64,000 bases of DNA from Branchiostoma floridae. Taxonomy: Eukaryota; Chordata; Leptocardii; Amphioxiformes; Branchiostomatidae. The DNA is taken from NCBI RefSeq assembly GCF_000003815.2, contig NC_049989.1:17835143-17899142 (forward strand), given 5' to 3'. Shown here piece after piece: positions 23,154-62,144 of the stretch (positions are counted from its first letter, which is position 1; each line of letters starts with the position of its first letter). The position numbers and the translations under genes were made by a program. Below the pieces are notes generated by a model. The model saw only the letters and a program-made list of their open reading frames with translations. It was not told where the DNA came from and searched no databases.

Positions 23154-26100
23154 TTAGCTCCAGACGTCGCAGGCGTATCTGCCCTTGTTCCTGAGCCCCT
23201 TGATGAAGTCCTTGGCCTGGCTCTGAGTCATGTTTCCGTTCTTCTCCACGATCTCGTGGAGGACCATGTCCACGTCGTGCGCCATGTGACGGGCGTCTCT
23301 GTGGACAGCAGAACAGTGTGTCGTTGATTAGCACTTGAACTATACATCAACAAACCAGCCCGTCATAAGTTTTGCCTCCCATTGATTTATCCTTCTAACT
23401 CTCTTGAAGATTTCTTAGCATCACTGTGGAGAGCAGAACAGGAAAAGGAAAATAAGGAAAGTGATCTCGATCCAGTTTTAGCTCACTGTGGAGTTAGTCT
23501 CCCACTGGTTGTGAAAGAGAGGACAGCTGCTATGTGCAGTATTTACAGGTTCATTGTAATGGGGAAATCCCCCTAGCTCTTTTCGACAAGCACAATGAAC
23601 AGTGGACCACAGCTTAACGTCCAGTCTTAAGGACTGCAAAACTTTCCGGTAGCGTGCAGGTCGGGTTAGCGACACAGCCGGAATCAAACTCGTAGCTTCT
23701 AGTTCCAGAGGCAGGGTCGCTAACCACTGGGCTATGCTCGCTAGCTCAACAGTGCGTTGTTGAACAACATGTAATAAATTCTTTTGGTTAAGCTTTAACA
23801 AGTCATTCAGGGTGATGTAACAAAATTCTGCCACCTGAATGCAAAGCTGGTGAGTCATACCAGTTCACCAATTCAGATTCAGCATCTGAGACAACAGCTA
23901 TGTTCAAAATATTATTCAACCTTCAGAGACAAAATGAGTTTCTAAAAAAATTCAGAGGATGCAACAAAAATCAATATCTACATGATACTGGGCAAAGCTC
24001 CTCGCGGGACATTATGCCAAGGGAGGTGTCCAAGCTTGACGAGTGGTGGTTAAACAAAATGGTGAAGTGAAATCATTCAACAACAAAAAAAGGCAGTGCT
24101 ATACATCGTGGCTTGCAAGGGTATAGCATTGGTCCTACAGCTGGGCAGAGCTGGGGTAGCCGTAATGCTTGGCTACCACAGCTTTGAATTGCTCTATAGA
24201 TGCAAGGTCTATCAGGTGTTTTGGTAGACAGGTGAGACTTACCCGCACACATACAGATGTGCCCCATCGTTCAGCAGATTCCAGACCGACTCAGACTTCT
24301 GTTTGATGAGGTGCTGAACGTACACCTTCTGTGCCTGGTCGCGGGAGAACGCCATGTTGAGCTGCGAAAGCGTCCCGTCTCCCTCGTATCCTTCCAACTC
24401 CTCCTGGTAGATGTAGTCCTCCGACTTCTTACGGCAGCCCGAGAACAACACGGTGTCTCCGATTGGTTTGCCTAAACAACAAAGTTTTCAATCACAACCT
24501 TTCTATACAATCAGAGTGCTCAAGTTTCAGATTACATATCAGTTCGAGGACAGGATGGTGTCTCCGACTGGTTTGCCTAAAAAGCAAAGTTTTTGATCAC
24601 AGCCTTTCTCTCCAATCTGAGCGCAGCTAGTAAAAATTTGCTCCAGTTTTAGGTTACTAAACGAGGATGAGACAAAGAGCAGCAATTGCTTGTCTGGGAC
24701 TTCTCCTCGAACAACTACTAGTATGCAAAAGTATCCAGAGAACAGGGCGGTGTCTCCGATTGGTCTGCCTAAAAACAAAGTTTTCAATCACAACCTTTTT
24801 TAACAAATTTTTTTCATTCACATTTTTTAAACAAGGATACAATGAATAAATAAACAAAACATTTATCTCTTTATTTACCAATGTTTTGTGTATTTTTTGT
24901 GTCTATGGAAAATGAATAATAAAGAACAAAAGACAAATCATGGATGAAATCTCACCTTCGGCCTTGGCATGATGCCTCTCCTGGATGAACCCTCGGAATG
25001 GCGCCAGCCCGGTCCCGGGTCCGATCATGATGACGGGGGTCGTGGTCTTGAACGGGAGGCGGAACGGCGACTTGCGGACGTAGATGGGGACGCGGGGGCC
25101 GTCGGGGCCGTTGGGGATCTTGGTGGCGAGCCAGTTGGTGGCCACGCCCTTTATCCTGCGGTCAATCTTACTGTGGTAGTCCACCAGGACAGCAGTGATG
25201 TGGATTCTCTCGGGATGCTCCTGAAAACATATGGAAACATTCTTTCTTCATCTGCCATTTTCAACTAAAGTGAAGCACAATGCTTTTTCCAGTATGTAAA
25301 ATTGGGGCTATGTGGCTTTGCTACAGCTTGTATTTACTATGCCAAGCACACCGGGACACTCCTACTGTTTTGAGTGTGTTGGGTTCTTTTACATGCTTGA
25401 GGCTTACACCTGAAGCTAGCCCATACAAGGGGCTGCTGGTTTTTATGTAACTACATTTTGTATCTGGAAATGACAAATGTAACACCCTTTCAGTCTTCCT
25501 ATTCTGACAAGTGTTGCGCAGGGGAAAAGTGGGGTTCTGAAGTCCTTACCTTCGGTGAGGATGATATGGAGTAGTAGCGGGCGTGCAGGCGCGGCAGCAG
25601 CTCACACAGGTGGTCCAGGGGCGGCTTGAGGGACGGCAGGTCCTTCAGAATCTGCAGGATGTCACGGTGGCTCTCCGTCACCCACTCAGCAAACTCTTTC
25701 TGTGGGAGAAAGAGAGGGCACATATAGATATATGAGGGATTAAAGAACTTAAACCACAAAACTGGTAAACTTAGTCACTGGTAGCAAGTTTAAAGGCAAG
25801 TGTTATTAATGTCACTATTAACATATTTTTTTTATTAATTCACAGTAAACTCTTGTACTTGATTCCTTCATATACACATCTTTAAAGTCATTTTTTTGTC
25901 ACTTCAGTCACAAAAAGTATTCAACAAAGTAATATTCTTGTATGCAGATACAGAATGAAAGTAGCAGTACTGTGCCATGTTTATATCAGTTTTCAACCAC
26001 AGATGACCTTGCTTGCGATAGCTCCCAACCATGGTCTGGAGAAGGTCAGGAGGAAATGGTCGGCTTTGTGTGTCACATGTTACTCCCAACAAAGGTCTAG

Positions 26101-29100
26101 AGAAGGTTGGGAGGCGACGATACTTGGCTACAGAGTTAGTGACAGGGACTCTACCTTTCCAGCGGATGCAGTGATCCTGGTGAGGAACTCCCTGTCCTTG
26201 GGGTCGGAGGCGTAATCGATGATGTCGTGGAGGACGTTGGTGCGCGGGGGGTGGGTGATGTCCACATAGTGCAGGAGGGCGGTGCGGTATGTTGTTGGGC
26301 ACGGGAACGGGTGCTTCTTGGCTGCCTCATCTGCGAGAGAATTATTATGGTGAATATCACAACAGCCATCATAAATTTGTTGCTTTTTAAAAAAAATTGT
26401 TTGCTTGTTGACATATCAGGACCCCAGAAGCAAACTCTATATTGATGGTAAAAACTCATTTTTTCATTTAATACATGACATTTGAACAAAACGATACTGT
26501 AAAACTAATACATGAAAATCCGAAACAAATCAATTTTTTGTCATGTTTTGTGCTCACATTAATGATAACCCAAATTGCATTAGGAATTAAAAATAACCAA
26601 CAAATTTTACTACCAAATTTTACTACTAGCCAATCACTGCATTGTATATAATCTAACAAAATCTTGTTTAATTTTTAACCATTTACTTACTTTTCTCAAG
26701 TTTGCTTTAATTCTCTCTACTTTATTACTCTTCTCTTTGTGAAACAAATTACATAGAATTCAATTTGTGGGAAGAGAATTTTTTCATAATCTTAATTAGG
26801 AAATTAGATCTAGCATTTCACCATCCACGTTGTTTAGAGTGAAGACTTCGTCCAGGTTGACGTTGAGGAGATGAGCGATTTCCTCCACCATGGAGGGGTC
26901 GTTGGTTGCGTATACGGCCACGTGGTCACCTGCCTCGTACCTGTACAATAATGACAACATGTCAATCATTACCTTGTCTGAGTAGTTAATTTTTTTAAAA
27001 GTATTTGTGGTTTAGCACTAAAGCAGGACTCCAGAAGCTATGGATGGATTGATGTAAAATTTGGCATGACCTTAGGTTTTGGGCAATCGAACTAATGATT
27101 AGATGTTGTGTCCCCTGTCAATATAGAACTCACAGTACATTTTTTATCATCTCAGGTCCTGAACAAGCTTTGGTCTTGATTTTGGGGGTGGTAGACAGGT
27201 CTTGTTCAATCATTTCCAGGTCTTCTTCTAAATAATTAAATAAAAAGAGGTCTCCTTGACAAGAAATTCTACCCTTGAATTTCTTCTTAACTAAGAGGAC
27301 AGTGAACTACATGTAGTTCTTGATATGGGATAGGGGATAATTAGTGCTATCAAAACACATGTAACTGGCATAATAATCACAGAGAGTTTAGGCCTAGCTT
27401 TCAAGTCCACATACCAAAGCAAGGTCACTAAATGTAAAAATGTATGATACTGTCAATCTTGTTGAGGTACAGAAAACACCTGTAGCAAACTCTCATCCTT
27501 TTCTTGTACAGTACATTTGACAGTATCTAAATGATAATGAAATAACTGGAAGCCTACTGGTATGCACTTATCTTGACAAGAGATTATACTGCCACCTCCC
27601 AGGTACCTTATCTGTACTTTCATTTTTCAAAGTAATAATCTGGTTATCATGTGGGCCAACAACTGTAAATGCAGAAATGTTCGCGGTGGATTAATGTTCG
27701 CGGTTTTCGCGGTGACCACTTCACCGCGGACTTAAAACCACCATGAACATTTTTCTATTATGGTATTAGACTGCAGTCAATGGTGTTACCGTGAACTTAA
27801 ATCCAATGCGAAATTAAATCCCCGCGAACTTTAATGCATTTACAGTACTCTCTCTCCACAGCCAGAATTGCAAGGGTCTTAAGTGGGTGCCATTCAGTGT
27901 TTAATTTAAGTGAACTCATACTATGATTTCACTAACTATGGAACTGTTGGGTTTTGAACCACTCACACCACACACAAAAAAACCTACTTTTTTCAACAAG
28001 TGTTGTCTTCAGAAGTATCAAACCAAGAAACAATCCAGTGCTGTATTACCTGATCCTGGATCCTGAGATGTCAAACTCGATGTGCATGCAGGACCGGTCC
28101 CCTCCCTTGTGCAGCTCTCGGTTCACCTTGACAGATGACATGTACGGGTTCTTGGCATCGTAGGGTCTGAAAAAAAAGGATCATTACTTTAATTAAGTGA
28201 ACATTAAATGAGAAGATGGTCACATGCCATTTAGTGATTTGTGCTTCAAGTAGGGTACTAGTCTGAATCTTGCATAATGAATTTGAGTAAGCACCTAGGC
28301 CGCACAATAGCAGTTAGTAAATGTGAACACAACTTGAAGCAAATAAATTCAAATTTATGCTGTTTTCTTCTCTATCTCCATGTAATTTTGCTTGAATCAG
28401 GACTTCTACACTTTCTGTTATGCCCTTGCTTGAATTAAAAAAAAAAGTGCTCCCTACTGGCATTGTCTCTACAAACTTGTGAATCACCTACTGCAAGCTA
28501 CACAATAACTCAGATAGAAAGATAAACAAAAAAAACAACATTTATAGTTTTGTATCCTTCCCAGAACTGTACCACCTTGAAGTACTTTTCCCATTTATCC
28601 ATAGTATTCCATACAATAACCAGAAGCAAAGTAGCACCCCAACTTTAATAACAACAGCTTGCAGCACCTTTTGGACTTTGAAAAGTGCAAATTTCGATAA
28701 CGTTACAGAAAATACAGTAAATACAAGACTACTGTTGTGAAGACTCACGGTTTCTGCTGTGTAAGTGAGTTGAGTCGGGTGGGCTCTCCCGTGAAGATCT
28801 CGTTCTGGTTGATGTCCTCGTGTTTCTCCAGTGTGTACTGCCTCATCCTACACACCACGGACAGGAAAACAGCTGTTAGACTCAGCAACACAACCTTTAC
28901 TCCCATCTTCTGCTGCTTCCCTTCTGTTTTCCCTCCCAATCTTTGTAAAAATCACAAGAAGTTCTTCTTCTTCTTTTTTACTGCTAAGCCGCTATATCAG
29001 AGATTGTCCCTTCTTGCTCCCTTTCCTACATAATACACTGATCCTGGCTGTCTATCAAAGTAAAACAGCCGTTAGACTGAGCAACACTGTCTTTACTCCC

Positions 29101-32100
29101 ATCTTCTGCTGCTTCTCATTTTGTTTTCCCTCCCGTCTTTGTCAAAATTCAAAAGTTGTTGACCCTTCTTCATCCCTCTCCGATCCTGACTAAACAAAAG
29201 CTTTACTGCTATCTTCAGCCGGTTCCCATGCTGTTTTCCCTCCCGTCTTTGTAAAAATTCAAAAGTTGTTGACCCTTCTTGATCCTTTTCTCATCCTGAC
29301 TGTCCATCACAATTAGAAATTCAACCAATGGTGGCATGGTAATTATCAGTTGAACAACAAGAGAGTGGTCGCATGTCCATCAAACAATTGCCATTGTATG
29401 TTTTCATTTTGCATTTCTACCCTCTGACGGAGGTGGGCAGGGCTATGGGGTAAGTCTATTTACTTCTAGTTAGAAGTTAGAAGTTCAAAACAGGTAAAAG
29501 TTTTGACTGCACTTAGGGTTGTTCTGTGTCTAATAAGACATCAGTAGCCAGTCGTTAATGTACCATTCATCAGTTTCACTAAAAATAGAGTTGTGTTTAC
29601 CAAGATCCTTCCATTTATCAATGCATTCAGTCTGAATGGAAATCTGATTGGACAAGGATGTACGCGTGTAAAGTTGTTGCTAGGTTACCGTTGCTAGGAG
29701 ACCCTGTAGGAACCTTTACCACGTAGATGTCACCCAGGCTTCCTGATTTCAATAACAATTCAACAGCCTCTTGGTAAACCCAAGGACTTCTATATAATGT
29801 CCTTGGTAAACACAATTGTTGACCTTGGCTTTAGTTTTTTTCATTGGTGGATCAAACCACATGTGGCCAAACAAACTTTACTGGTCAAAAGAGTCGAACG
29901 ACACAAAAACAAAAACCTTACTAATGAAAAATCCCCATGAAAATTAACGAATTTACTGTATTCAAAACTGGATTGTTCAATAGTGACCTAAACAAGACAA
30001 GACTTACACTCCCTCCTCTCCCACGGATTCGATACCGAAGTGTTCGCACACCGCTGGCCACAAGGTCTCTCTCCACGTTACAAAGTCCTCCTCAATACTG
30101 TAAGGAAAGATACACAACATGTGGATATATTATAGACCACATTTCATACTGAAGATAAAGCTCATAGATTTATGAATGTATGTGGCAAACCAAAATAGAT
30201 GGTGGTTGTAAAAGGGTAAAATATATTCAAATGCAAAAAAAAATTATAAGCATTACAAAAATTATTTCTACTGACAATAACAATAACAACAGGTCTTTAA
30301 ACATTGTCTGTTCCAGCTAAAGATGCATTTTGGTTGTGTTTACAAGAACTATACTATACGAGTAAGGATCAAAGTCATGGGATGATCCTAAATGTGTAAT
30401 GGGACATCTTGGCAAAAACCATATGCATGTGGTACATGAGGTACATTTGTATGTGCAAATAAAAAACAACAAGACAAAGTACTGACTTTGCATCATCGTC
30501 CCCCATTCCGGCTGTACAGAGTCTGACAGCACCCATCTCTTCAAGCCTCTTGTCCACAAAAATTCCCATGGCATTGAAGTGCTCGTAGGTCTTGTTTCCC
30601 AACCCAAACACCTAGAAATCAACACATCAATACATTGTTAAAAACAACTGACATTCCATGATTTTTGCTACCACTGAAGAATGAAAATAAATGTGAAGGA
30701 TCTTGCACAAGTTTCAAGTGTTGACATAGTCATATAACATCTGGAAATTTTAAGATAAAACAGCCAAAATGCAGTGCTATGATTTAAATCTTTAGCCATA
30801 CTTTTGTATATTGGATAGTATTTAGAGCCTTTAAAATGCTAAGTGACAAGTGACTACCTCTACAGAAGAACCACCTGGCCACTGATATACAGTCAAACCA
30901 GTACAAGTAACCAACTCTACATAAGGACCATCTAATTTTTCCATTGGCACAAGCACTAAAAATCCTGTCTAAAGCTACCACCTGTCCATCCAAATTCTAA
31001 TTATCCCAAGTGGTCTTCTTGTACAGTTATACATATCAACAATTGCCATATCTTTATCACAACAAAATTTGCTTTTCTTGCTTAAAAAAACAACGAAAAA
31101 ACAATTTTCTTGTTGGACTCACAGCATATCTGAGCTCGCTGAGATCGTGGTCCTCCTGTAGCCAATCGAAGAACTCCTGTGCATTGTCTGTTGGGTCGCC
31201 CTCACCGTAAGTCGCCAGACAGAAGAGAGCAAAGGAGCTCTCTACCTCCCCCATTCTGGTCAGCTCCTCCTAATAGATGGAAAGTAATAAGGATTCAGAC
31301 ATTAATGTGGACCAAGGATAAATATTGAGATGTCCTGAACTTAGTTTGACTATTAAGATGCGACTACCAAAAATACTGAGGGTTTGCATGGGGAATTGTG
31401 GTAATACTACGGTCACATTTCCAAACTGGGGCTTGGCTGGGCAGCTTTCAGGAACAAGAAGCATAATATAAAAGACAGCAAAACAACTCCATGACTATGG
31501 GCAATCTTAAAAGACACTAATCAGTGACAGAACTTAATGATAAATCAGAGCGGGCCACTACAATCAATGGTGAGTTAAGATAGCTCGCCATTCCTTGAAC
31601 ACGGCAAAAGGCATAAATCCTCAATGTTTGTTGTTGATAACCATGATATTTAATAAGCACATTTCCCATGTTCTTTCGTCATTCTGTCAAATGTCAACTC
31701 ATCAAATATGTGTTACATATCATTCATTGTCATTTAAAAAAAAATGCCTACCATTTCACACTCCTCTGGGTCTACAGCGAATCCCTTCAGCCCGTAGCGT
31801 ATACAGTCCCGCGCCAGTCTGCCGGCAAACTCCTCCGCAGTGCCCGTCTGGGAGCCGTAAAACACTGCTACATTCTTCTTCTGCACAAACAAACACACAA
31901 ACAACTTCATTTGTATACTGAAGACCAAAATTGTCCATCAAAACACAAAATGAAACACTACAAAGCCTCCTTAGCAGACTTCTTGTAGTGCCAGCATGTA
32001 CGTATATTCTTTTTTTGTTTCCCTGTTTAAATGAATGAATGAATGAAAGACCTTTATTGTACATTCAAGCCTCCACGGGCTAGGTACAGGTCACTGATAA

Positions 32101-33815
32101 CAGACACAACAGACATATGCAGGGACAACAAGATACAATTTAACTAATTGAAGGTACTAAGCTAACATTCATGGTCCACATCTTCTCGCTTCTTTGTACA
32201 GGTGTAGATATAGGAACAAATAATGTTTAATATACAGGGTTTATCTAGGCCCATCAAAAATAGAAATTTATCTGTTACATTAAGATGTTCAAAATATGGA
32301 AACTCTTTTCTTATATATGCATAAAGCACAATCCGTTCCTTATGGTACAATTTACAGTGTAAAATAAAATGTTGTTCATCTTCTACCTGTTGTAGATCAC
32401 AAAATTTGCAGACTCTATGCTGCAGAGGAGTGCAGTTGTGCCTTCCAGTTTCGATATGTAATTTGTGGCAACTTATCCGGATGAACAGTGTTACTGTGCT
32501 TGATAAAAGCAACTTAACTTTGTTGATAAAATTCTTCTGAATCAGGATTTGTGGTTTCATTACAACGTTTAAAAAAAAACTTAAGTCTAATTCTTATTGA
32601 AAACTTAAGTCTAATTCTTATTGAAAACTTAAGTCTAATTCTTATTGAAAACATGACACTGTATTACCAATAGAGAAAATCACTGGAGAGGGGAAAACAA
32701 TACTAACCGTTTTCTTCATGCGGTTGATAAAGCTTGGATCTCTGCTTGCAGTTGACAGTGGACTGAAAATAACAACACGAAAATGTGTTAGACAGCTAAC
32801 AAGACGGGTGTGCTTCTCAACCATCAAAAACCTTAGCTTTTTTATCCTCTAGTCTTAATTAATATCTCACTTCATTAAGTAGCTAATAGTAATAGTAAAT
32901 CAGATTCAAGTAACACCTGATTCACCTTTTTTTCAACTTGTCTGGCAAAACAAAAGGAGAAGTTGTAGGACAAATCAAAATCATGTACTCTATTAGGCTT
33001 GCTACCAAAGATTTGCCAAAAACAAGGGATAAAAAAAATATACATTGTATGTGTGTTCCCAGAGAATGCAGAACAGCACGCATGATGGTCTCAGACATTG
33101 ACCTTGAGTTTGAAAGGTGGAACAGATTAGGGGGGGGACACATTGGGGGACTCTGGTTCCATAGATTACATACAGCTGTGCTTGAAGTGCAGGACATGCT
33201 GACATTTTCGCATTGGCTTGGCCAAGTAGGTTTTATGTATAAAACCTCCCTGGCTAGGCATAAACAATCCTGGGCCGGCTTACTCCTCTGCCAGCTTTTG
33301 ATACTATATTATGCTACTGTGCACGTAGGATCTGTTTGGAGATTAAGGTCAAAGGTCAGCTGACCGGGTATACTGTATATGTTTCCGTAAGTGTACCAGG
33401 GCTGTCTCCAGGACCCGTCCTTCTCTCCCAGGATAGAAATTTGCTTGTTGGGACAGAAAATAATTTTACCCCATCTGTCCTCAAAACGACATGAAACTGT
33501 TGAAAATATACTTTCATCAGCTTAAAATGACATATTCAACCAGGAAAATCATCAACATGGGATCCCAAACAACGAGTGGGATGGAAAAAATTCTAAGCTG
33601 GAGATGGCCATGAGGTGTACTCACACAACAGTGAGAGGCTTGACGAGCTGTTGAGGCGTGGCGGCGGCCTTCCTGTCCCTGAAGAACCACCAGTAGATGG
33701 TGAGCCCCAGGATCATGCACACCAGGAAGATGTCCGTCATTCCGAGGAACGGCTCCTCTTCTGTTGCCGCCGGCAACGGCACGGACTGTGTCTCGTCAGG
33801 GTCCATGTCTGTCAT
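23154..33815 (-). CDS. POR: NADPH-cytochrome P450 reductase, 14 coding exons
   Basis: Exons (minus strand): 33815-33625, 32762-32708, 31880-31752, 31269-31123, 30611-30487, 30097-30008, 28847-28749, 28166-28050, 26940-26822, 26330-26155, 25699-25550, 25220-24956, 24471-24243, 23298-23154. All have GT-AG borders and joined phases and give 678 aa, the usual family length. An N-terminal membrane anchor lies at about 23-45. The flavodoxin-like FMN domain has YGSQTGTAEE (90-99) and ATYGEGDPTDNAQ (144-156). FAD and NADPH binding are shown by RYYSIS (457-462), GVATNW (491-496) and GPGTGLAPFRGF (533-544). The protein ends DVWS with the conserved penultimate Trp. It moves electrons from NADPH through FAD and FMN to microsomal P450s at the ER. 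An acceptor just before the ATG (exon border at 33824) shows a further 5' untranslated exon. Introns carry MITEs, a SINE, a LINE tail and decoy copies of the exon 13 start. Confidence 0.97.
23595..23755 (-). mobile_element. tRNA-derived SINE in POR intron 13
   Basis: On the minus strand a box-A-like TAGCCCAGTGGTTAG and a box-B-like GAGTTTGATTCC are separated by tRNA-like spacing. A shorter relative on the same strand lies at 58086-58145 in NFATC2IP. Confidence 0.65.
24540..24790 (-). repeat. Two partial copies of the POR exon 13 start in intron 12
   Basis: The acceptor and first 25-35 bp of exon 13 (GGTGTCTCCGATTGGTTTGCC on the plus strand, 24452-24472) recur at about 24557-24580 and 24749-24772, together with flanking intron sequence (CAAAGTTTTxxATCACA). 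Both copies keep the AG acceptor. Reading from the outer copy stays open through the inner copy and then stops at the inner copy's TGA. Confidence 0.9.
27663..27848. mobile_element. MITE, CTGTAAATGC / TTCGCGG family, in POR intron 8
   Basis: Ends CTGTAAATGCAG and GCATTTACAG, with the TTCGCGG-rich body of the 5367-5572 element. The right side is flanked by TA; the left flank is changed. Confidence 0.8.
28858..29290. repeat. Three diverged tandem copies at the 3' end of POR intron 6
   Basis: A unit containing TTTACTCCCATCTTCTGCTGC and GTTTTCCCTCCCxTCTTTGT recurs from about 28858, 29057 and 29192. The array ends about 10 bp from the exon 7 acceptor. On the gene strand it is purine-rich, so the acceptor lacks a good polypyrimidine tract here. 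Confidence 0.7.
32045..32575 (-). mobile_element. 5'-truncated LINE tail in POR intron 2
   Basis: A 132-codon minus-strand frame (32162-32560) contains RVCKFC, VEDEQHFILHC and LYHKER, the Cys/His-rich pattern seen at the C-terminal end of non-LTR retrotransposon polyproteins. After the stop come an AATAAA and a CATT microsatellite tail (32030-32055), as in CR1/L2-like elements. The reverse transcriptase and endonuclease domains are absent, so it is a dead copy. Confidence 0.75.
32581..32652. repeat. 24-bp unit repeated three times exactly
   Basis: TTAAGTCTAATTCTTATTG plus GAAAAC-type filler makes a 24-bp unit at 32581-32604, 32605-32628 and 32629-32652. The array abuts the truncated 5' end of the LINE fragment. 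Confidence 0.9.
33270..33345. mobile_element. Half MITE, CAAGCAGATCC family, in POR intron 1
   Basis: It contains CCAGCTTTTGATACTATATTATGCTAC and ends GATCTGTTTGGAGATT. Only one end is clear. Confidence 0.55.
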
Positions 33816-33829
33816 GATCGCTTTCTAAA

Positions 33830-36290: not shown

Positions 36291-36309
36291 AAGTTGCTAC
36301 CCTATATTT

Positions 36310-46900: not shown

Positions 46901-49900
46901 TGAACTGATAAATGTGATGGACAGTCAGAATTGGTGTTTTTGTTATGGAGAGCTAAAACATTTGCCCATGCTGTTAGGTTGGTGCGAGGCCTTGTGATGG
47001 ACCACGGTGGCCGCCATCCAGACATGCCCAAGAGGGTGGAGGATGCCTACATCTTCACATGCAACGTTTCCATGGAGTATGAGAAAACGTAAGTCCAACC
47101 TATCAGGTAGGCTACGGCCAAGGTGTGTTGATACACCTGATCCCTTCATCTTGGAATTAAGCAAAGTGCAGTCGGGTCAGTTCTTGGATGGGATAAGAGA
47201 CCACAAAGGAAGACTGGATGCTGTAGCTTGGTCATACCAAAGACTCTTAAAAATGGAACATACATGTACTTCTCTCTCTGCTAAGAGGGAGAGTATGGAA
47301 CCAAAAACACAGTGGACTAGCCCGCTGCTGTAGTGCATGCACCTATGTGTGGCCCAAGGCTTAGAAGTTGAGATGGTCACCGGACCCGATGCATCTTCTG
47401 ATCAGGGAGGTAAACCCTCTCGTTCTGATTTATGGGCAACTTCAGTTTAAACATGTCAGATGTTGCTTTAGGCATTATGATTACCAGTCAGTAAGAATAG
47501 CTTTTTCTGCTACATTTTCTGGTTCTGAAACTTGCCAATTCACCCATAATATATTACAAATAAATCAATGGATGTAAATGTTTTTTTCCTTTAGCGAAGT
47601 GAATTCCGGGTTCTTCTACAAGAGCGCAGCGGAGCGCGAGAAGCTGGTGCTGGCCGAGCGGAAGTACGTCCTGGAGAGAGTGCAGAAGGTCATCGACCTG
47701 AAGAAGAAGGTCTGCGAGGGAAACAAGAAAGGCTTCGTGGTCGTCAACCAGAAGGTAGGAAGGCTTGTATTTCTGTTCACATGCCTTATAGTTAAGATTT
47801 TGTGAAATTTTGGTCCTTTCCAGCAAGCAAATTTCCATCCTGGTATGGAGGGGTGGGTCCTGGATACAGCCCTTTCTAAATCAGGGCTGAAAATACTTTT
47901 TTCTGCATACCTGCTCAGGTGCAGCTCATTACATGCACCGGACAAATGTTACCTGCACCACTCTGAATTTAGGAAGTATGGATCATACTAAAATTGTTGA
48001 GGAACCATTGCTATTTTTTTCTTTTATATTTTATAGGTGGTAACAGCCAATGCAGCTAAGAACAGTCCACATACACCTACATTGTATGGAATTTATGTAT
48101 AAAACCCAGTACATGGACCAGTGCAGGTAAGGTGCAGGTAGACACCAGAAATACCTGCACAGCTCCAATTTTACCTGCACTAGCCTACATATGCAGGTGG
48201 TATTTTGAGCCCTGTAAATGAAACTGACTTTTGTACTTGCAGGGTATCGACCCGTTCTCCCTGGACATGCTGGCTAAGGAAGGCATCATGGCGCTCAGGA
48301 GGGCCAAGCGAAGGAACATGGAGCGCCTGTTGCTCGCCTGCGGAGGGATGGCCATGAACGATGTCAACGACCTCACGCCGGACTGTCTCGGGGAGGCAGG
48401 GCTCGTCTACGAACATGTGCTGGTAAGGGGTCAAAGTTGAAAGGTTGTGATGTATAAGTCCACATCATGAAACATGTCTAAATACACTCAGTACATGAAC
48501 AAGTGCAGGTAGATATCTGGAACACCTGCACAGTTTTAATTTTACCTGCATTAACCTGCATGTGCTGGTTGTATTCTGAACCCTGGGATTGTTTCAATCA
48601 TGATTTTTCTCCTATTTCACACTTAAGTTAATAAGAAAATGAACAAATTCAGATTCACATCGATGAAGGTTAGACATCCAGGTAATAAGATACGCCTAAA
48701 AGCAGTTACACACACGGACTTGGTGCGCTAGTTGCTTTGATTTGTTGTTTGTTTGTTTACATCTGTATTTGTTTTGCAGGGCGAGGCTAAGTACACATTT
48801 GTGGAGGAGTGCAAGAACCCGAGGTCAGTGACCCTGCTGGTGAAGGGGCCCAACAAGCACACCCTGAACCAGATCAAGGACGCCATCCACGACGGGCTCA
48901 GGGCAGTCAAGAACGCCATCGAGGATGGTACGCAAGTTATTGTTGTGTCCTTTAGGTTATTTTTCCCATTGACACAAGTATTAAGATGTCTTGAGTGGTC
49001 TTCTTTGTCAAGTTTGACTGCATCACTATCCGTGATGGGCTCAAGAACGCCATTGAGGATGGTACGCAAGTTATTGTGTTAAAAGTGTGTTCCAGTGCAA
49101 GTGGCCACCTGTGTAGAAAAGACACATAAATGATGTGACCTCTTTTTTGGTGTTTCTTACTTCTGGACGTTTCGAGTGACATCCATCACTTTTCTTCAGT
49201 CACTGTAAGAATTATTTGATGCAAGTACAGCTAACTAGGAGTTGCAGGGATTGAAATGTATTTGTATATTGTTTACCTTGATGGCTAACCTTCAAAAAGA
49301 TAAGAGGGATGTTGTTTTCCTATGGCAGGTTGTGTGGTACCAGGAGCTGGAGCTTTTGAAGTTGCGTGCCATTCCGCGCTGTCAGAGTACGCCAAGACCG
49401 TGAAGGGTCGTGCCAGGCTTGGGGTCCAGGCGTTCGCTGATGCTATGCTTGTGATTCCAAAGGTGGGTCACTCTTCTTATCTATCAAAATGCTGTTTGGT
49501 TCTTTCTTTTATTCTAAGTAAAGATAATCCTACATCATGGGTTTTTCTCAAAAAGTGAAAAGGGGCGTGTCCCCCTAATACTTTACCCACCTACCTCTTA
49601 CCATTGCATCAAGTTCAAATAATCCAGGGATGCTCTTCGACGCCATGTGTGATCACAGTGGCACAGTCTTTAACTGTGACCAGTCGGACAGTAATCTTGC
49701 ACCTCACCTTAGAATGCCCCATTTTAATCTATGAATCTCCACAAGTACATACTGTGTTAGGGTGAATACCCTTTCATACAACACACTTCTAGGTGGCTCA
49801 GTTCAATTTCTCATTGTTCAATTTAACAAAATAAATGTGTGCACAGATGTTTACCATTAGGTCATGTTTTATGTGTTTTGATCACTCTTTGTTGTGCAGG

Positions 49901-51308
49901 TCCTTGCACAGAACTCTGGACAGGACCCCCAGGACACCATGGTGAAGCTACAGCAGGAGTACGCAGAGGCAGGCATACCTGTGGGCTTTGATATCTCAAC
50001 AGGTTAGTAGATCAGTTTAAGACCGGCGCAATGGCCTTGTGGGTAGGTGTTGGCCTTGCATTCTGTGGGTCGTGACTTTGATCCCCGCCGAGTCATACCA
50101 AAGACTTTAAAAAAGGCACATGCTGCTTTCTCTGCTCAGCACTCAGCACTAATGAGGAAGAGTATGGAAGTTAAACACACATCACTACCAGCGGACCAGC
50201 CCCCTGCTGTAGTGACTTGCACAAATGTATGGCCCAAGGGCTACTCTAAATGGAGATGGTGGCCACCCCTAAGTATCTGTACAGATGTATGGGCAACTTT
50301 TTAGTAGACCTCTCTTTTTAGTCTATAACGTTCAGGCTCATACCATTGCTCTATTGTTCGTCTGATATTGCATACATTACAAGATGGAACTAGATTGAGC
50401 ACTTAGCCTGCCCATCTCGGTCAAAGTGTAGAAATGTACAAAGAAAATGCCAACATTTGACTGACATGTACGGCTCTCTCTCTCTCCGTGGCCATGATGC
50501 TAATTGCTATGCTACTATTAGTTGACCTGCTAATCGTGATAGACAATCTGGATTGGTCTATTGTAATGAAAACAGAAAGAGGTAAAAAAAAGTACTGTGC
50601 TCCAGTTTGTATGTTTTAATGGTGTTATATGACAGTCCTTATCTTAAATCTTACATCGAGTGAGATCCTACCTTTGCCATTAGCACTGCAAAATTTAGTA
50701 TGAACCTTCTGGTCTTTCCCTTGTTGATCAGGTGAGGCAATAAATGCTGGTGATGCCGGGATCTGGGACAACCACTGTGTCAAGAAGCAGATTATCAACT
50801 CTTGGTGAGTCTTAGTCAAACATAATCTCCACATTGCAAATGTTGAGGGATGCAAAATCATATTTGGTTTGACACCTATACACTTACTTTACACCAAAAC
50901 TGTTTTATGAGAAAAAGGCAGCTACGAAAATGATAATGATTTAGCCTCTGCCAACAGCCATTTTCTTGGAAATGAGGATGATACAATTTGACCTTTGTAA
51001 AGTTTTCCTTCATTACTCAAGTCACTTTGATGTGATTGTCAGATGGTTTTAGCGGAAATCTTTCAATGCTTTTACCAGAGTACCTTCTGAGGAGCAACAA
51101 CGAAGTGGAAACAACAACGCTTTAGCATGAGGATATCACTGTAGACTATTGGCTTTTCTTCAATTGAAATAGCTTATGTTCGTCAAAGGTACAGATCCTA
51201 GCTAACATCTACTTTGTTTTTGTCTCCAGCACGGTGATAGCATCAAACCTGCTCCTGGTGGATGAGATCATGAGAGCTGGCATGTCCTCACTCAAGAAGG
51301 GGTCCTAA
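40964..51308 (+). CDS. CCT6A: T-complex protein 1 subunit zeta (CCT6), 14 exons
   Basis: Exons: 40964-41100, 41935-41998, 42437-42571, 42831-42890, 45332-45445, 46345-46448, 46978-47088, 47595-47754, 48243-48422, 48780-48927, 49329-49462, 49900-50002, 50732-50804, 51230-51308. Phases join throughout and give 533 aa, matching the family's length. It is one of eight subunits of the cytosolic TRiC/CCT chaperonin, which folds actin, tubulin and WD40 proteins in an ATP-driven cycle. Visible ATPase landmarks are [11 protein letters not shown] (37-47), TKDGN (57-61), GDGTTS (89-94), PGAGAFEVA (409-417) and GDAGIWDN (490-497). [15 protein letters not shown] lies near the apical/intermediate junction. 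The ATG (AAGATGG context) has no better upstream choice. An ATTAAA at 51335-51340 could serve polyadenylation. Exons 3, 5 and 10 have unusual splice-site surroundings (see findings). The symbol assumes one zeta gene; vertebrates have two. Confidence 0.97.
41676..41810. mobile_element. TA-flanked MITE in CCT6 intron 1
   Basis: 135 bp with ends CTGTAAATGG and AATTACAG, flanked by TA at 41674-41675 and 41811-41812. The terminal repeats are related to the CTGTAAATGC family. Confidence 0.65.
42575..42625. mobile_element. End of a CTGTAAATGC MITE abutting the CCT6 exon 3 donor
   Basis: From 42575 the sequence CTGTAAATGCATTAAACTTC, then GGGATTTAATTTC, matches the terminal 45 bp of the 5367-5572 MITE read inward. 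It starts two bases after the GT of the exon 3 donor, and the preceding TA is the expected target site. The other end of the element is not recognisable. Confidence 0.7.
42917..44185. mobile_element. Non-autonomous hAT-type transposon in CCT6 intron 4
   Basis: 1269 bp with ends CAGTGTTTCCGCCAGA in inverted orientation and an exact 8-bp target duplication, GTCCTGTA (42909-42916 and 44186-44193). There is no transposase frame. The interior around 43630-43770 is CpG-rich and promoter-like, with CCAATCA, TCTCGCGAGA and GCCGCCAT. The part at 43260-43640 is homologous to 62740-63110. Confidence 0.92.
44992..45331 (+). repeat. 68-bp tandem array duplicating the CCT6 exon 5 acceptor and start
   Basis: Five units begin at 44992, 45060, 45128, 45196 and 45264, exactly 68 bp apart, and the real exon begins at 45332. 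Each unit has the first 54 bp of exon 5 followed by a TGTTGTTGTAG acceptor. Units differ from each other by only one or two bases. A degenerate start is also seen at 44887, and the left flank (44827-44901 versus 44932-45006) is duplicated too. Confidence 0.97.
47180..47410 (+). mobile_element. SINE body fragment in CCT6 intron 7
   Basis: The stretch from GGTCATACCAAAGACT to GGCCCAAGGCTTAGAA matches the body of the element at 50024-50290. The tRNA-like head is missing. Confidence 0.6.
47882..48214. mobile_element. MITE with CAGGGCTxxAAATAC ends in CCT6 intron 8
   Basis: Inverted ends CAGGGCTGAAAATAC and GTATTTTGAGCCCTG (near-match) enclose many ACCTGCAC motifs. TAAAT occurs next to both ends. 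A shorter relative lies at about 48490-48585, and elements with similar ends are at 51605-51937 and 54725-55019. Confidence 0.6.
49030..49077 (+). repeat. Copy of the CCT6 exon 10 end and donor inside intron 10
   Basis: TGATGGGCTCAAGAACGCCA, then GAGGATGGTACGCAAGTTATTG, repeats the exon end at 48895-48940 about 133 bp downstream, with a 9-bp deletion in the exonic part. The donor GTACGCAAG is intact. Confidence 0.9.
50024..50300 (+). mobile_element. tRNA-derived SINE in CCT6 intron 12
   Basis: The head GCGCAATGGCCTTGTGGGTA, then GGTCGTGACTTTGATCCCC, resembles tRNA box A and box B. A body shared with 47180-47410 follows. Confidence 0.65.
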
Positions 51309-51604: not shown

Positions 51605-51937
51605 CAGCGTGCAAAATACCCACTTGCACACTTGCACATTGCAACCACTTTTTGCTTGGTGCAACTTACTTCTAAACTCAGGTTGCACAGGGTGCAACTT
51701 AGATTTTGAGCCTCAGAACTCGATTTTGTTGTCAATTTACTTGGAAGAAATTAATGGACCGAGACAGCTCCGTTTCATATCAGCCAAACTTGTCAGTAAT
51801 TGCCAAATATGATAGTAAAAAGGTTTCAGAAATTAGTGAATTGTAGGTGGTGCAACTTAAAATTCAGTTGTGCAACCTAGTTTTTGCCCCAGGTTGCGCA
51901 CTGTGCAACCTGACTCATAAAAGTATTTTGTACGCTG
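51605..51937. mobile_element. MITE with a 6-bp target duplication
   Basis: Ends CAGCGTGCAAAATACC and GTATTTTGTACGCTG are inverted. TGTTAG flanks both sides (51599-51604 and 51938-51943). The interior has repeated TTGCAC and GTGCAAC motifs. Confidence 0.7.
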
Positions 51938-52756: not shown

Positions 52757-52893
52757 AAGCAGATAGCATACGGTAGCATAACAGAGTATCAAAAAGCTGG
52801 CAGAGGAGTGAAGCCGGCTTAGGAGTGTGTTTGGCTACTGCAACTCCTTAGCCAGTTTGGTACTATCTTATACCATTGTAGGATCTGCTTGGA
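52757..52893. mobile_element. MITE, CAAGCAGAT family
   Basis: Inverted ends TTCAAGCAGAT and ATCTGCTTGGAGATT with the family interior (AGTATCAAAAAGCTGGCAG and GGTACTATCTTATACC). Confidence 0.75.
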
Positions 52894-54724: not shown

Positions 54725-55019
54725 CAGTGCTCGAAATACACACTTGCAAACGCAACCACATTTTCCTTGGCGCAACTTGATTTTAAACCCAAGTAGTGCA
54801 GTGTGCAACCTGAAATTTTGCAGTGGGAACAGTTTTCCCATACCTATGAGCATGAGCTTTTGTATCTATTTCTTGATTAGATGAAACATAAAGTAGCTGA
54901 TTTGAGAATAACTTGGAAGTGGGGCAACCTGAAATGTTCATGGTGTAACCTGGCTTTTGATGACTCAGGTTGCCACCTGGGCAACCTGGCTGAAAAAAGT
55001 ACATGTATTTCGAGCACTG
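54725..55019. mobile_element. TA-flanked MITE, CAGTGCTCGAAATACA ends
   Basis: Terminal inverted repeat CAGTGCTCGAAATACA versus TGTATTTCGAGCACTG is exact over 16 bp, with TA on both sides. The interior is rich in GCAACCTG. Confidence 0.8.
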
Positions 55020-55040
55020 TACTTTATAACATCTGTAAAT

Positions 55041-55206
55041 AATCTCGAAGCAGATCCTACGGTAGCATAAGATAGTATCAAAAGCTGCCAGAGGAGTGAA
55101 GCCGGCTTAGGAGTGCGTTTTGCTACCGGCCAAATGGACACCCTTCGGCTGACTACACTCCTTGGCCAGTTTGGTACTATCTTATGCCAGGATCTGCTTG
55201 GAGATT
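55041..55206. mobile_element. MITE, CAAGCAGATCC family, in the NFATC2IP 3' UTR
   Basis: 166 bp with ends AATCTCGAAGCAGATCC and GGATCTGCTTGGAGATT. It lies 18 bp downstream of the NFATC2IP stop codon, so it is probably transcribed in the 3' UTR. Confidence 0.8.
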
Positions 55207-55223
55207 AATCTGTTAAGTTATGA

Positions 55224-58200
55224 CTACTGTAAGGCTCGAGCATCGATGGTCTCTCCGCCCTCCATGTCCAGATCTTCAGGCGTGTCGTCAGGGGAGACGG
55301 ATTCGCCGTCGAACTTGAAGTGGAGTCTGCTAAGGGGGAGCTGCCGGAAGTCTGCGTACTCCTGCATTATCCTCTGCAGCTTTTCTGACTGGAAAGGACA
55401 AATTTTATGCTGTAAATTGTGAATTATTCATGGTGGCTTTATGTTGGTGGTTTTCTCAGTGGGACTATCACACTACAAACATGTATTCTGTCTTAGTATC
55501 CCCCTAGCCTGTTATCCAGCCGATTTATAGCTCATAAATCTCTTCTGTCCTCTCCGCAAATGCACAGAGGACAAGAGGACAGAAGAGACTCGGGTGCTAT
55601 ACTACAGTTGGATACCAGGCTAAGAATTCCCTCCTTCTTGCTTCACCATAATCCTAACAAACCATGAACACCTCCTTTCCCCCTAACCATAAAATTGAGT
55701 TCCCCGCAAACCTACATAAATTTACAATATTGCAATAGATTGTGTATATGTGCTACTACTGTACATACAAGGTACAATGGGTGCCTAGCCTTGCATAAGA
55801 CAAAAAGGTTTTAAACCAGAAGTTCCATGTTTGAGGAGAGCCACACCCTAAACATGTCAAATATCCACATCAGGAGTACTTGTACATCCCCATGTGATTT
55901 GATCAAATCCTTCAGTACTGTCTTACACAGCTTGTACCTACTGAATGAAAATGATGTATATATTTCACCTTAAGGAAGTTCATCACTTATGTAAAACAAA
56001 CAAACAAACAAACAAGCAAACACACCCACCTTGTCAACAGTGAAGGTTTTCTCAGTTTTCCTCTCCTTGCCTTGGATCTTCAGTTCAAGTTTCCCCTCAG
56101 TTGAAGTTTCCTCCTCCTCCTCCTCTACAACCATGCTGGCATTGCTGATGGAACAGTCTGGAAACACATTTACAAATCATGAGGATCAAACATTCCTTTC
56201 TTGAATTATCCTTTTTAGGATATCTTAACAAAATGCCCCTCCAATTCTACACCCAGACTAAATCCTGACTTTCATCCTCCCAAGACCTATATACAAATAC
56301 CAAATACAGTAGAAGCCAGTTAATTGCACAATGGATAACTGCACAATTCTGTTAATTGCACGGAATTCTGAAATCCCAAACCGGTGCGGTGCAGCTGGAT
56401 AACACCGCATTATTGCACCATCTGGATAATTGCACAAAATACACAGGCAAATGGGGTGGGCAATTAAACAGCTTCTACTTATAACTATGTCATTACAATT
56501 CATTTCAACCATTATTAAGTTATGCTGGCCATCAATATCCAAAACACAATCAAAGAAACACACACAAAGGCACAGTAAAAACAATACTTCCATTTTTCAT
56601 GTAATTATGGTCCGTTACGGATTAGCAGAAAACATCTACTACTGTAAATCTTTAAATGTTTGTAGTAGCTTTATTTTTGCAGTTAATACAGTGATGTCTC
56701 CACCATGGTTTCATGATGCCAAAAATATGTGTTTCCACCATATTACTACTGTACTTGAGAACTTGTTTCAACTGTGAACTTACTAAAACACCTTGAAAAC
56801 CTCATTTACCCTTCTTGCAAAATTAAGTCCTGCGAAAACGAATGAATGTACAGTAGTTGTAAGTAGCAACACTCTGGTCAAATGAGGTAAATCTACCATT
56901 GATCTGTTTACATCAGTCATCTCTGTGTCAACAAACATGCATGATGCTATTTCAGGACAAAGTTTGTTTTCAATCCTGTCTGTTAATAACATATCCACAT
57001 TGGAATCAGATACGTGGATGGATGAGTACTGGATCCAGAATTATTGTCTTTGCTCAAACAAGATTATTTTTGCAGTATTCGTATTGGTGTACATTTTCAT
57101 CCTCGAGACATTCAGGTAAAGCCTGGAAAAATGGTATTGAACTTAGGTGGTGTCTATTCCAATGAGTCACATGCTTTTCAGTGTCCTAAAATTGGACAGG
57201 AAAGATGCTTGAAAGCATAGTGTGTGATGTTTCAAGAGCTTTCTTCTTTAAGAACATCAATTCAAGAAAAATTCAAACAAAAGAACTCCTCTCACTTGCA
57301 CATGTGACTTCACAAATTGCAACAATGGGCATAGAGTGTGTTCTATTTAATTGATGGAAGCCTGCGTGATCCAACTAAGAAGCCTTTGTGATACGGAAAA
57401 TCATCATCCGGTCTGGAACACCTGTATCGAACGCTATCACGGCCCTGAGGTATCAAAATAAAATAGTGGATAATACTTGAGGAATAAATGCTACCAACCT
57501 ATGATATCAGCGATGTGCAGGCCGATGCTCTGTGGGGTGTCTGTCTGCTGTATGGTGTAGTCCCTCAGCATAAAGGAAGCAATGCTACCTACCAATGATA
57601 TCAGCGATGTGCAGGCCGATGCTCTGCGGGGTGTCTGTCTGCTGTATGGTGTAGTCCCTCAGCACCAGCAGAACTCTGTCTGTGGGCGCGCCTTCTCGCT
57701 CCGACATGCACCGGAAAAGCTTCTCAAACCTGTCGCTCTGGGACAAAAACAAAAGACGAGTTTTGTTACATGCATGAATATCATCATGGACTTCCCAAAC
57801 TGTCAGACAAAGTATGGGCAAGACGGCTGAGGTTTGCTGGACACAACAAGGTAGAAATGTCCAGCCTAGTTCTATGGATGCCAACACATGGGAATAGGAG
57901 GCAGTGAAGACCACCCCTCACCTACATAGATGTGCTGAGAAGGGACTTCTGCGCAACCACAGTGGTTTGGGTGGCAGGGGAGAAGTAGCACCCGACATAA
58001 GTCAAGTAAGTCAAGTCATGGGGAGACAACGTGATTGAGTTACAAGTCTAGAAGTCTGAATAAGATGAAAGACCTGTCCTCACAATCCTCATGTTGAAGT
58101 CACGGATTCTAGTTCCAGAGGCAGGGCCGCTAACCACTGGACTACACACACTACCTAACACTGACAAGCAATCAAACAGAGAAAAAGCATCCTGGAACAC

Positions 58201-61200
58201 GAAGACCTCTACTCACCATCCTCATGTTGATCCTGTGCACACCTGCACCTGACGACCTGCTGCGCACCTTGACTGTGATCTCCCTGTCCACAGGTGTGAC
58301 AGGTGAGGCTAGACCGGAACTGTCCAAACTGAAGCTCGATGGGGAGGACAACCCTGCTGGCTCTGCCGTTCTTCTCACCGTCTGCAGCGCAGCATCCACA
58401 CCCCTGAGGAGAAATGGAACAGTCCAAAAAACATTAAAAAGGATTTCTCCCCAATACAATGTTTACTGACATTGATATACTTTATCATAGTGCATGTACA
58501 TGTACAACTTTCTTGGACTGCAAAATTTTCGAACTTTATATCCTGACAACTGTTTCCCTGCCAAATACATCTCCAAAGCCTCACTTTTCATAGTCATGGC
58601 ATCAAGCATTTGTCAACTCAGAACAATAGAGCTAATAATAAAAGAATTCCATTCCTTGAAGTAAAAATACATAGAAGAACAAGAAAAGTTGGTTCGGGCA
58701 AGTAATTTCTACATGCCTGATAGGACAAGTACATTTTAGAAAACGTGTCCGACCCTATCAACTGTGAGGCTGTTACTTGTTGAGCTACAGGGACATCCCT
58801 TCATAATTGAGTAGGTTTTCTTTTTTTACTTCTTTTTGTTTGCCTACCTGAGAACCTTCTCGGTCCCTTTCCTTGCCTTGGTGGCCCCGTGAGGCTGCTC
58901 CCAGTTGAGCTACAAAGACATCCCTTCCCTGTACGATAAGTTTTCTTTCTTCTTTTCTTTCCTTTTGTTTGCTTACCTGAGAACCTTCTCGGTCCCTTTC
59001 CTTGCCTTGGTGGCCCTGAGCCTGCCCACATCATGGAGCAGTGTGTCAAAGGAAGGGGGAGGGGGTGGGGAGGGCGACTGCTCTCTGGTGACATGCCTTC
59101 TGTCCTCTGGAGACCTGTAAGTGTCACATGTCATTAAAAACCTTCACCAATATCATAACCGACATGTCAAGATTGTATCGTCATTTCAGCCTGTTACACA
59201 TTGTCATAGCCAACCATACTGGTTGGGAGCAAAGTCGTGTGGAGAACATAAATGTGTGAAAGGGGCCTACAATCCTCAATTGCATGTTAAGCTATTTCCC
59301 AAAGAAAACTATTAACATCTGTATAGATGTTTGCTACCCTATAGTAGTAGAAGAGACATGCACCCTATAAATTTAGTCACATACTACTGTATTAATTTCT
59401 TGATATGTTCTTGTTCTTTTTAATTTTGCGTTGACCTCTCAACCATGTAATCATGGCATCCAAAAAATGTTTTAGCAGTGTATTACAACTGTACTACAGA
59501 ACTGCTTCAACCAAGAATTTAAATTACAGTGGAATTCGCTTATTTGGATAGCTCATTTGTCAGCGCATTTTATCCAATAGTCCGAAGTATCCAACAGTCC
59601 GAAGTTGGGCCACTAACACCCCGAAGGGAGCCGGGAGGGGGGCGAATATAGGATTACTACTACGCAAGACACAAACACCACACATATCATACGATACGGA
59701 ACTTCATTTACAAAACTTTTGAATCAGACGTTTGTTCATCTAGAGCAGTAGTAGTCAAAGCAGTAGTTATTAATAACTTACAGTACTGTTTTGAACGAAT
59801 GGAACGTCAACTGTTGGAATCTACAACATCACTAAGCAAAAGATCGAACAGATTCCAGTTACAAGCTTTACATAATTATACGTCCCGATATTATAAAATT
59901 TACGTGCGGTGATAAATCTAATAAAGATTTTTAAGTCGGTGGCTAAATGAACATGTAGAAATATACGCTTGACTCGCACTGCCGAGAGCATAACTAATTG
60001 AACCACAACAAAGACAAACACAACTCCGCTTGTATGCCGAAAAAAATATGTTGATATCGTAATTTTGAGCAAAATGACGGGAGGTATTGGAGAGATAAAC
60101 TCTTCACCTTCTTATTTACATCTTGTGCCCACAAATTACGCTGAAATTTTAAACTCGACGCCGTCTTTCGCGGTGGTAGACGGAAAATTTCACTTTCAAA
60201 ACAATTAAAATGGCGTCGCAGCGTGGCTTGAGATATCCCGCCATTCAATGCGGCTGATTGCGACATCACAGTTCATTGACCCTGTTGCGTTACGTGCGCT
60301 GTATAAATCTACGTAGTGCAGCCGAAATCAGCTCAATAATGAGACAGTGGATATGTAAAAACACATTTTGTAGGGTAAACCAAGTTTAGACGTTGTCTGA
60401 AGGGGAAATATGAACTCAAAAGCGCGTTGACGTTCCCATGACGTCCGCCCATCATGCCTTGCGGCAACCTATCAAAATGGCGCCTAACAGCGGTATCGGC
60501 AAGATTTTCTGTGGAATCTACCTATCTTACGGTCCTTTTCATGCTTTAATACCTTCATACATACAGTTGTTGGTTGATTTTGGCCTCATTTTGTAAGTTT
60601 TAGCGTTTATTTTCCCATTTTATTCGCTATAATTTGACGTAATTCTATCCAAAAACCCGAAGTTTGAAACCGGGGGTTATCCAATTCTGCGAAGCCTTAT
60701 ACAATAGAATGAATGGCAAATGGTTTGGGATTTCGCAATTCTATGCAATAACCCGAATTATCCAAAAAGGCGTAATACGAATAATTGGAATCCACTGTAC
60801 CATGAAATGTCCCTGCAAAAACAAATAAATCTAAGAACATTTATTTTGAACCCAAACCAACCTCAGGTCTGTACTTAGCTCCTCTTCATCAGAGCTGATA
60901 ACAAAAGTGCTTGGATCTTCGGTTCTGGAGTTGACCTGGTCGGCTGGACTGGTTTTCCTGACTTTGGACTTGCTTGGAAGAAATACGACGTTACCACCAT
61001 TGTTCTCTTCATCTGTAAAACAGAGGGAACAAAAAATTGAAAATCTTGTATCTCCATGAATTATCTAGAGTTTCTAAGTTTTCCTCATTATAGTGTTGTA
61101 AATTGTAAATTTCTTACTAATTCTGTCTATGTTACCACCATTGTTCTCTTCATCTGTAAAAATTGAACATCTTGTATCTCCATGAATTATCTAGAGTTTC

Positions 61201-62144
61201 TAAGTTTTCCTCATTATAGTGTTGTAAATTGTAAATTTCTTACTAATTCTGTCTATGTTGCCACCATTGTTCTCTTCATCTGTAAAAATTGAACATCTTG
61301 TATCTCCATGAATTATCTAAAGTTTCTAAGTTTTCCTCATTATAGTGTTGTAAATTGTAAATTTCTCACTAATTCTGGCTATGCATCTTACTGCCTTCCT
61401 GCAGCACTTTAGGCTAAGGCCAGGCCTAGAGCACCAAATTTGAAATTGGGCCAAACTGTCTTCCTATTCATTTTCCAAAAATTTGAGTGTACAAATATGA
61501 CTTTTTTTATAACTTTTACAAAAATCATATTACGTGCATAGCTCTAATTCTGGGTGCAGAAAATTCTGCATAAAACCAGCATTTCAGACACTGGCTGCCA
61601 ATCTATAGCAAAATAATAAATCTAGCCTAGCATCTCACCAGAATCATGTTTGTCTGAAAGTGGCAATGTTCACAGAGAACAGATCCTTTACTTTCTAATC
61701 ATAAACAAACAAAAGTCCATTTTAACACAGCATTTCGGGGCCCTGCAAATCTACATATAACAAAAATAATAAATTTAGCCTAGCATCTCACCAGAATCGT
61801 GTTTGTTCGAAAGGGTGACCATGTACAAAGAGAACAGGTCCTTTACTCAGAAGACTCTAATCAAAACACACAAAAGTCCATTTGAACACAGCATTTTGGG
61901 GCCCTGTAAATCTACACAATAGCAAAATTATCAAGCCTAGCACCTCACCAGAATCATGTTTGTCTGAAAGAGCGGCCATGTTCACAGAGAACAGGTCCTG
62001 CTTTACTTTGCCAATATAAATGTTGCCAGTCTTGGCTGCGCTGGCGTTCATGTTGAACTTCCTTCTCCTAGGAGGGGGCTTCTTGGTGACGACTATCCTC
62101 TCTTCCTCATCACTATCACTGGAGCTGCTGTCATCCTGGAAAAC
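55224..62144 (-). CDS. NFATC2IP: NFATC2-interacting protein (NIP45), 5' partial
   Basis: Exons (minus strand): 62144-61949, 61012-60862, 59114-58977, 58403-58217, 57737-57593, 56157-56030, 55388-55224. All phases join and give 369 residues, against roughly 420 in vertebrates, so only the N-terminal part is missing. Acidic Ser/Asp tracts (DSDEEE, VISSDEEE) precede a basic stretch; FVISSDEEE looks like a SUMO-interacting motif. Two SUMO-like domains follow. The first starts REITVKVRSR and ends GLHIADIID; the second runs from GKLELKIQGKE to MEGGETIDARALQ. There is no C-terminal Gly-Gly for conjugation. This is the Rad60/Esc2/NIP45 (RENi) family: nuclear proteins that use the second domain to bind UBC9, affect SUMO-chain formation and genome stability, and in mammals assist NFAT transcription. 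Introns contain duplicated exon edges and a pogo-like transposon. No start codon is visible. Confidence 0.88.
56306..56445. mobile_element. DNA-transposon fragment in NFATC2IP intron
   Basis: ACAGTAGAAGCCAGTTAATTGCAC after a TA looks like a Tc1/pogo-type terminus. Inverted TAATTGCACA / TGTGCAATTA phrases recur across the segment. The far terminus is not found. Confidence 0.45.
57498..57572 (-). repeat. Copy of the end of the NFATC2IP exon at 57593-57737
   Basis: The last about 70 bp of the exon (ATATCAGCGATGTGCAGGCC on the plus strand) are repeated 94 bp downstream in the intron. The exonic part differs by only a few bases; the donor in the copy is altered. Confidence 0.93.
58841..58893 (-). 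repeat. Copy of the end of the NFATC2IP exon at 58977-59114
   Basis: ACCTGAGAACCTTCTCGGTC and on to TTGGTGGCCC repeats the exon end and donor about 130 bp downstream. The duplicated unit also includes the neighbouring T-rich tract and a SINE-like GAGCTACAxxGACATCCC phrase. Confidence 0.93.
59527..60797. mobile_element. Non-autonomous pogo/Tigger-like transposon in NFATC2IP intron
   Basis: 1271 bp, flanked by TA (59525-59526 and 60798-60799). Ends CAGTGGAATTCGCTTATTTG and CAGTGGATTCCAATTATTCG are inverted; the CAGTxxAATTCGCTTA form recalls pogo termini. No transposase frame. The interior has two ATGGCG-rich, CpG-containing segments. Confidence 0.85.
61125..61380 (-). repeat. Two copies of the acceptor and start of the NFATC2IP exon at 60862-61012
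   Basis: The first 25 bp of the exon with its acceptor (CACCATTGTTCTCTTCATCT on the plus strand at 60995) recur at about 61136 and 61259, followed by shared intron sequence. The period is about 123-140 bp. The acceptors are intact. Confidence 0.93.
61620..61855 (-). repeat. Two copies of the end of the NFATC2IP exon at 61949-62144
   Basis: The last 45-50 bp of the exon and its donor recur at about 61635-61690 and 61790-61850, about 155 bp apart. The nearer copy keeps an open frame (SNKHDS in place of SDKHDS); the farther copy is frame-shifted. Both keep the donor GTGAGATGC. Confidence 0.93.

Follow-up and report, generated by a model that had tools for sequence, protein, structure and literature searches.

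Partial copies of exon borders in the introns of three neighbouring amphioxus genes: most likely harmless products of local tandem duplication

In a 64,000-nucleotide stretch of the Branchiostoma floridae genome (hereafter the window), introns of three neighbouring genes carry partial copies of the exon edges that they adjoin. Copies of this kind, known as mirages, have been described in amphioxus for Adh3, the globins and PGBD5 in the available parts of PMC3087553 and PMC3902484, and the original mirage paper is Canestro et al. 2002, as cited in PMC3087553. This locus raises the question of whether exon borders attract duplication, whether the copies serve a purpose in splicing, or whether small duplications simply happened to fall there.

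The models of the three genes (POR, CCT6 and an NFATC2IP-like gene; Table 1) are sound: the joined exons are open in a single frame with no internal stops, and the other frames hold 14-24 stops. Together they provide the 65 exon edges that we examined. The copies lie in intron, and the coding frame of all three models is intact. Elsewhere in the window, 84-bp tandem arrays at 2170-3497 and 9902-10817 are consistent with C2H2 zinc-finger coding units. The published B. floridae reference comprises 19 chromosomal scaffolds, as stated in the portion of PMC7269912 available.

For each edge, the terminal 60 nt of the exon (or the entire exon if shorter) was locally aligned with the edge's own intron, over at most 1000 nt. 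An exon copy was found in the adjoining intron at 7/65 edges, with scores of 57 for the start of CCT6 exon 5, 56, 44 and 40 for the NFATC2IP-like edges 57593, 58977 and 61949, 24 for the start of POR exon 13, 23 for NFATC2IP-like 61012 and 19 for the end of CCT6 exon 10. The remaining 58 edges scored 13 or less. When all 65 edges were aligned with control sequences, scores reached at most 12 on the reverse complement of their own intron and at most 15 on introns of the other two genes, and two versions of block-shuffled gene spans gave no matches in an ungapped self-scan. The self-scan of the actual sequence added an eighth edge, NFATC2IP-like 58217, with a copy at 58069-58097 (offset 133) and an edge-alignment score of 13. 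In all, a tandem-repeat unit spans 8 of the 65 edges if a 6-nt margin is required and 7 if the margin is 10 nt.

The seven edges that an earlier note on this DNA had named are exactly those scoring 19-57, and only 58217 had escaped it. Its figure of one to five copies per edge holds except at CCT6 exon 5, which has six. The exon portion of each copy, which it put at 25-70 bp, measures between about 14 and about 72 nt when self-scan coordinates are set against the gene models, and its periods of 68-155 bp become spacings of 68-157 bp between neighbouring copies, plus 192 bp between the two POR copies. Acceptor copies do lie upstream and donor copies downstream, as the note had said; in 58 comparisons of an exon end with the intron on the opposite side, the best score was 10. 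This arrangement is a consequence of geometry and does not amount to extra evidence.

Table 1. Genes and exon-border copies in the window (positions in the 64,000-nucleotide stretch)
Feature	Span	Strand	Details
POR (NADPH-cytochrome P450 reductase) gene	23155..33815	-	14 coding exons
Acceptor copies upstream of POR exon 13	24435..24806	-	real start 24471; decoys 24576, 24768
CCT6 (T-complex protein 1 subunit zeta) gene	40964..51305	+	14 coding exons
Mirage array, CCT6 exon 5 start	44843..45388	+	real exon 45332-45445
Donor copy downstream of CCT6 exon 10	48907..49077	+	real end 48927; decoy 49061; offset 134
NFATC2IP/Rad60-like gene, C-terminal Rad60-SLD domain	55224..62144	-	last 7 exons; model without 5' part
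Donor copies after first in-window NFATC2IP-like exon	61610..61999	-	exon 62144-61949; decoys 61792, 61639
Acceptor copies before second in-window NFATC2IP-like exon	60990..61383	-	exon 61012-60862; decoys 61153, 61279; 126-bp array
Donor copy after third in-window NFATC2IP-like exon	58764..59016	-	exon 59114-58977; decoy 58848; offset 129
Donor copy after fourth in-window NFATC2IP-like exon (eighth edge)	58069..58230	-	exon 58403-58217; decoy 58084; offset 133
Donor copy after fifth in-window NFATC2IP-like exon	57480..57664	-	exon 57737-57593; decoy 57499; offset 94

The array at CCT6 exon 5 is built of a 68-bp unit, composed of 13 nt of intron tail and about 55 nt of exon, and presents six decoy acceptors (44887, 44992, 45060, 45128, 45196 and 45264). 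The copy at 44887 is truncated and is the oldest of the six. Measured against the exonic portion of the real unit, four of the five near-identical copies differ by one silent base and the fifth by none, and this near-identity points to recent growth of the array. Among the matches listed, one is a full-length match to the array in the assembly.

Several other repeats were noted in the introns of these genes. A piece of a dispersed repeat occupies 44896-44970, between the oldest and the younger CCT6 exon 5 copies, and similar pieces occur near 44600 and 49180; the CCT6 array query has at least 42 further matches in the genome, nearly all within query positions 52-129 (40 of the 62 first-look candidates were scored). 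In the self-scan, CCT6 exon 9 is bracketed by direct repeats at 48104-48214 and 48486-48585, which are 371-382 bp apart. A tandem array in POR intron 6 (28863-29301, offsets 110 and 196 bp) is perhaps an eroded mirage, its similarity ending about 16 nt before the exon 7 acceptor at 28847. A motif of the form GGGATGTCCCTGTAGCTCAAC recurs in NFATC2IP-like introns, at 58760-58930 and near 62200-62260, overlapping a mirage unit; our guess is a dispersed SINE-like element.

To what extent do duplications favour exon borders? Tandem duplications in the three window genes were compared with those at 15 gene loci elsewhere in the genome, which were found via Pfam families and whose models came from spliced alignment against human proteins; these are conserved housekeeping genes and may be poor in tandem duplications. 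The event scan covered ungapped duplications at offsets of 50-200 bp, so that CCT5 exon 11, at an offset of about 205, falls outside it. Expected crossings were obtained by placing units of equal length at random, except where a unit would fall within an exon or cover one completely. Among the window genes, 8/14 events in 28.1 kb cross an edge by the 6-nt margin against 1.8 expected (P=7e-5), or against 3.1 if border-crossing events are allowed a two-fold detectability (P=0.004). With the 10-nt margin, 7/14 cross, and the expectation is 1.43 (P=1.2e-4), rising to 2.51 under two-fold (P=0.004) and 3.37 under three-fold detectability (P=0.025).

The 15 other genes yielded 18 events, of which four low-complexity ones, none crossing an edge, were removed. 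Of the 14 left in 135.2 kb, four cross by the 6-nt margin against 2.05 expected (P=0.13), or 3.44 with two-fold detectability (P=0.47). Two of these four (CCT7 exon 9 and CCT5 exon 4) cross by just about 6 nt on one side, and the 10-nt margin leaves 2/18. The 18 genes pooled give 12/28 crossings against 3.84 expected (P=1e-4), a result driven by the window. Duplication density is 0.50 per kb in the window genes and 0.10 per kb in the others, a roughly five-fold difference to which the same window selection applies. Because the window was picked for this very feature, the excess seen in it cannot serve as an independent test. More border crossings than expected are thus shown for the window only, and the earlier caveat that part of the pattern reflects ascertainment was apt; the unselected sample has no clear border excess, though a two-fold one is compatible with 14 events.

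Counting edges rather than events gives a similar contrast. An exon copy scoring 19 or more adjoins 4/338 edges in the 15 other genes and 7/65 in the window (Fisher P=4e-4), the 338 being what is left of 378 edges after 20 of 189 introns (40 edges) with a poorly aligned flanking exon were set aside. Two of the four, CCT2 exon 4 and ATP6V1B exon 12, are clear mirages, the third is a GT-less border copy at CCT5 exon 11, and the fourth, at ATP6V1B exon 13, looks like a duplicated coding exon rather than a border copy. The ATP6V1B intron before the last exon (C4:12199500-12209499) contains a 56-nt stretch resembling the last coding exon; the differences are scattered and by eye look largely silent or conservative, and the stretch is a possible alternative last exon. 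Random intron positions were tried as a further control, and 7.5 percent of them have a local repeat at a score of 19 or more, compared with 7/65 edges. This control was judged circular, since the mirage arrays themselves account for many of the positions covered, and event counts took its place.

The window and pooled counts are what would be expected if exon borders were true hot spots, with duplication targeted to exon–intron junctions by, for example, splicing-linked R-loops or base-composition steps. The near-chance crossings in the 15 unselected genes, the two marginal cases among them and the scarcity of exon copies at their 338 edges argue against such targeting, and we consider it improbable. 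A narrower form, in which duplication is actively drawn to borders at least in duplication-rich regions and the eight events are a sample of a local hot spot instead of window luck, likewise has in our judgement only a small chance of being correct. Were duplication drawn to borders, these would be recurrent birthplaces of spare splice sites.

The copies do create decoy splice sites, as had been proposed for tandem duplications crossing a border: AG or GT is kept in 16/16 copies across the eight window edges. Scored with a matrix built from 200 real donors and 202 real acceptors of the 18 genes, all 16 decoys exceed the 5th percentile of the real-site scores. It is thus conceivable that the copies are functional, either as alternative exons or in splice-level regulation whereby use of a decoy would lead, for instance, to mRNA decay. 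However, extension of the exon to the decoy introduces a premature stop in all 16 cases, and none of the 16 outscores its own real site. At CCT6 exon 10, the 9-nt donor is identical in the real site (48927) and the decoy (49061). The NFATC2IP-like decoy 61153, whose acceptor sequence is identical to that of decoy 61279, is without 15 pyrimidine-rich nt of the tract at the real acceptor 61012. In the border copy at the end of CCT5 exon 11 (C16:14041000-14057000), the decoy donor matches the real one except that the two bases GT are missing.

Pairing each decoy with a partner site that scores no lower than the 25th percentile of real sites gave 23 candidate internal exons. Five are open and in frame, and all five represent one 12-nt segment recurring in the CCT6 copies. 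These copies contain CAG|GTGAAG and would yield 12-nt in-frame microexons; that these segments might serve as new exons is a bare possibility. According to the available part of PMC3087553, cluster length varies among amphioxus mirages and regular splicing is reported to be undisturbed. A functional role for the copies consequently seems very unlikely to us, the preserved splice signals and the conceivable CCT6 microexons notwithstanding.

The array at CCT2 exon 4 (C19:6920000-6936000) bears on how splice sites are chosen. Its 67-bp units present 13 decoy donors, six of which score above the real donor and seven equal to it, and a premature stop follows in 13/13. Since these decoys are as strong as or stronger than the real donor, strength alone cannot explain site choice. 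Presumably position decides, and the site adjoining the exon body would be the one used.

The copies are partial, sit at offsets of 68-157 bp and carry mismatches and indels, unlike whole allelic segments. The usual Sanger read is longer than most arrays in the window. An assembly artefact in which divergent haplotypes were merged in tandem therefore has little to recommend it, since the published assembly, although built by resolving two highly divergent haplotypes, rests on Sanger reads (as given in part of PMC7269912), and re-sequencing of PGBD5 spoke against assembly error in the accessible text of PMC3902484.

We conclude that the mirages of the window are very probably small local tandem duplications, with units of about 70-160 bp, that happened to span an exon–intron border and are most likely harmless by-products. 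Each set of copies would have started as one local duplication, arising via end joining or template switching, and some arrays (those of 68 and 126 bp) may later have grown by slippage or unequal exchange. Such copies could persist if splicing takes the site beside the exon body, in which case they turn into intron sequence that can decay freely. Border-crossing copies would seem frequent in part because a pair with one partner held by coding sequence stays recognisable longer, and in part owing to the wealth of tandem duplications in this stretch. As a counterpoint, the border excess of the window survives a two- or three-fold detectability correction, and plain random duplication explains it only together with window selection.

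These observations add eight mirage edges with coordinates. We found no published mirage frequency across amphioxus genes in the open-licence literature; the exon copies at 4/338 edges of 15 conserved genes provide a rough one from a small sample. CCT6 exon 5, with six decoy acceptors, and CCT2 exon 4, with 13 decoy donors, offer natural tests of spliceosome choice among near-identical sites. The window copies also bound the idea of intron gain, because nearly everything that they offer ends in a premature stop. In the three window genes we saw nothing to indicate new exons or introns derived from mirage copies, and the suggestion of the earlier note that the copies could seed them finds no evidence here.

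Published amphioxus mirages resemble the present ones in unit length: 150-160 bp in BflGb6, 157 in BflGb9 and 10-72 in Adh3, from the available part of PMC3087553, and 60 and 108 bp in lancelet PGBD5, from that of PMC3902484, where troponin C is cited as another case. They differ in the genes concerned, which here are POR, CCT6 and the NFATC2IP-like gene, and in that eight edges within three neighbouring genes form a dense cluster. A border-crossing tandem duplication created an intron in potato (PMC4974935, in the portion available); as in the window, the duplicated segment crosses an intron–exon boundary and offers splice signals for a new intron. In potato the new intron was detected, whereas the window gene models need none and none was seen.

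The globin intron-gain model (Figure 7 of PMC3087553, as far as the accessible text describes it) proposes that mirage copies can become exons, leaving new introns, which is the same idea as that of the earlier note and is hypothetical both in that paper and here. In all eight window arrays the copies lie beside their own edge, whereas the model requires them at the opposite end of the intron; old, decayed cases would be missed by such a comparison. The phenomenon and the idea of intron gain are thus already in print, within the part of PMC3087553 available, and the POR, CCT6 and NFATC2IP-like loci are new cases.
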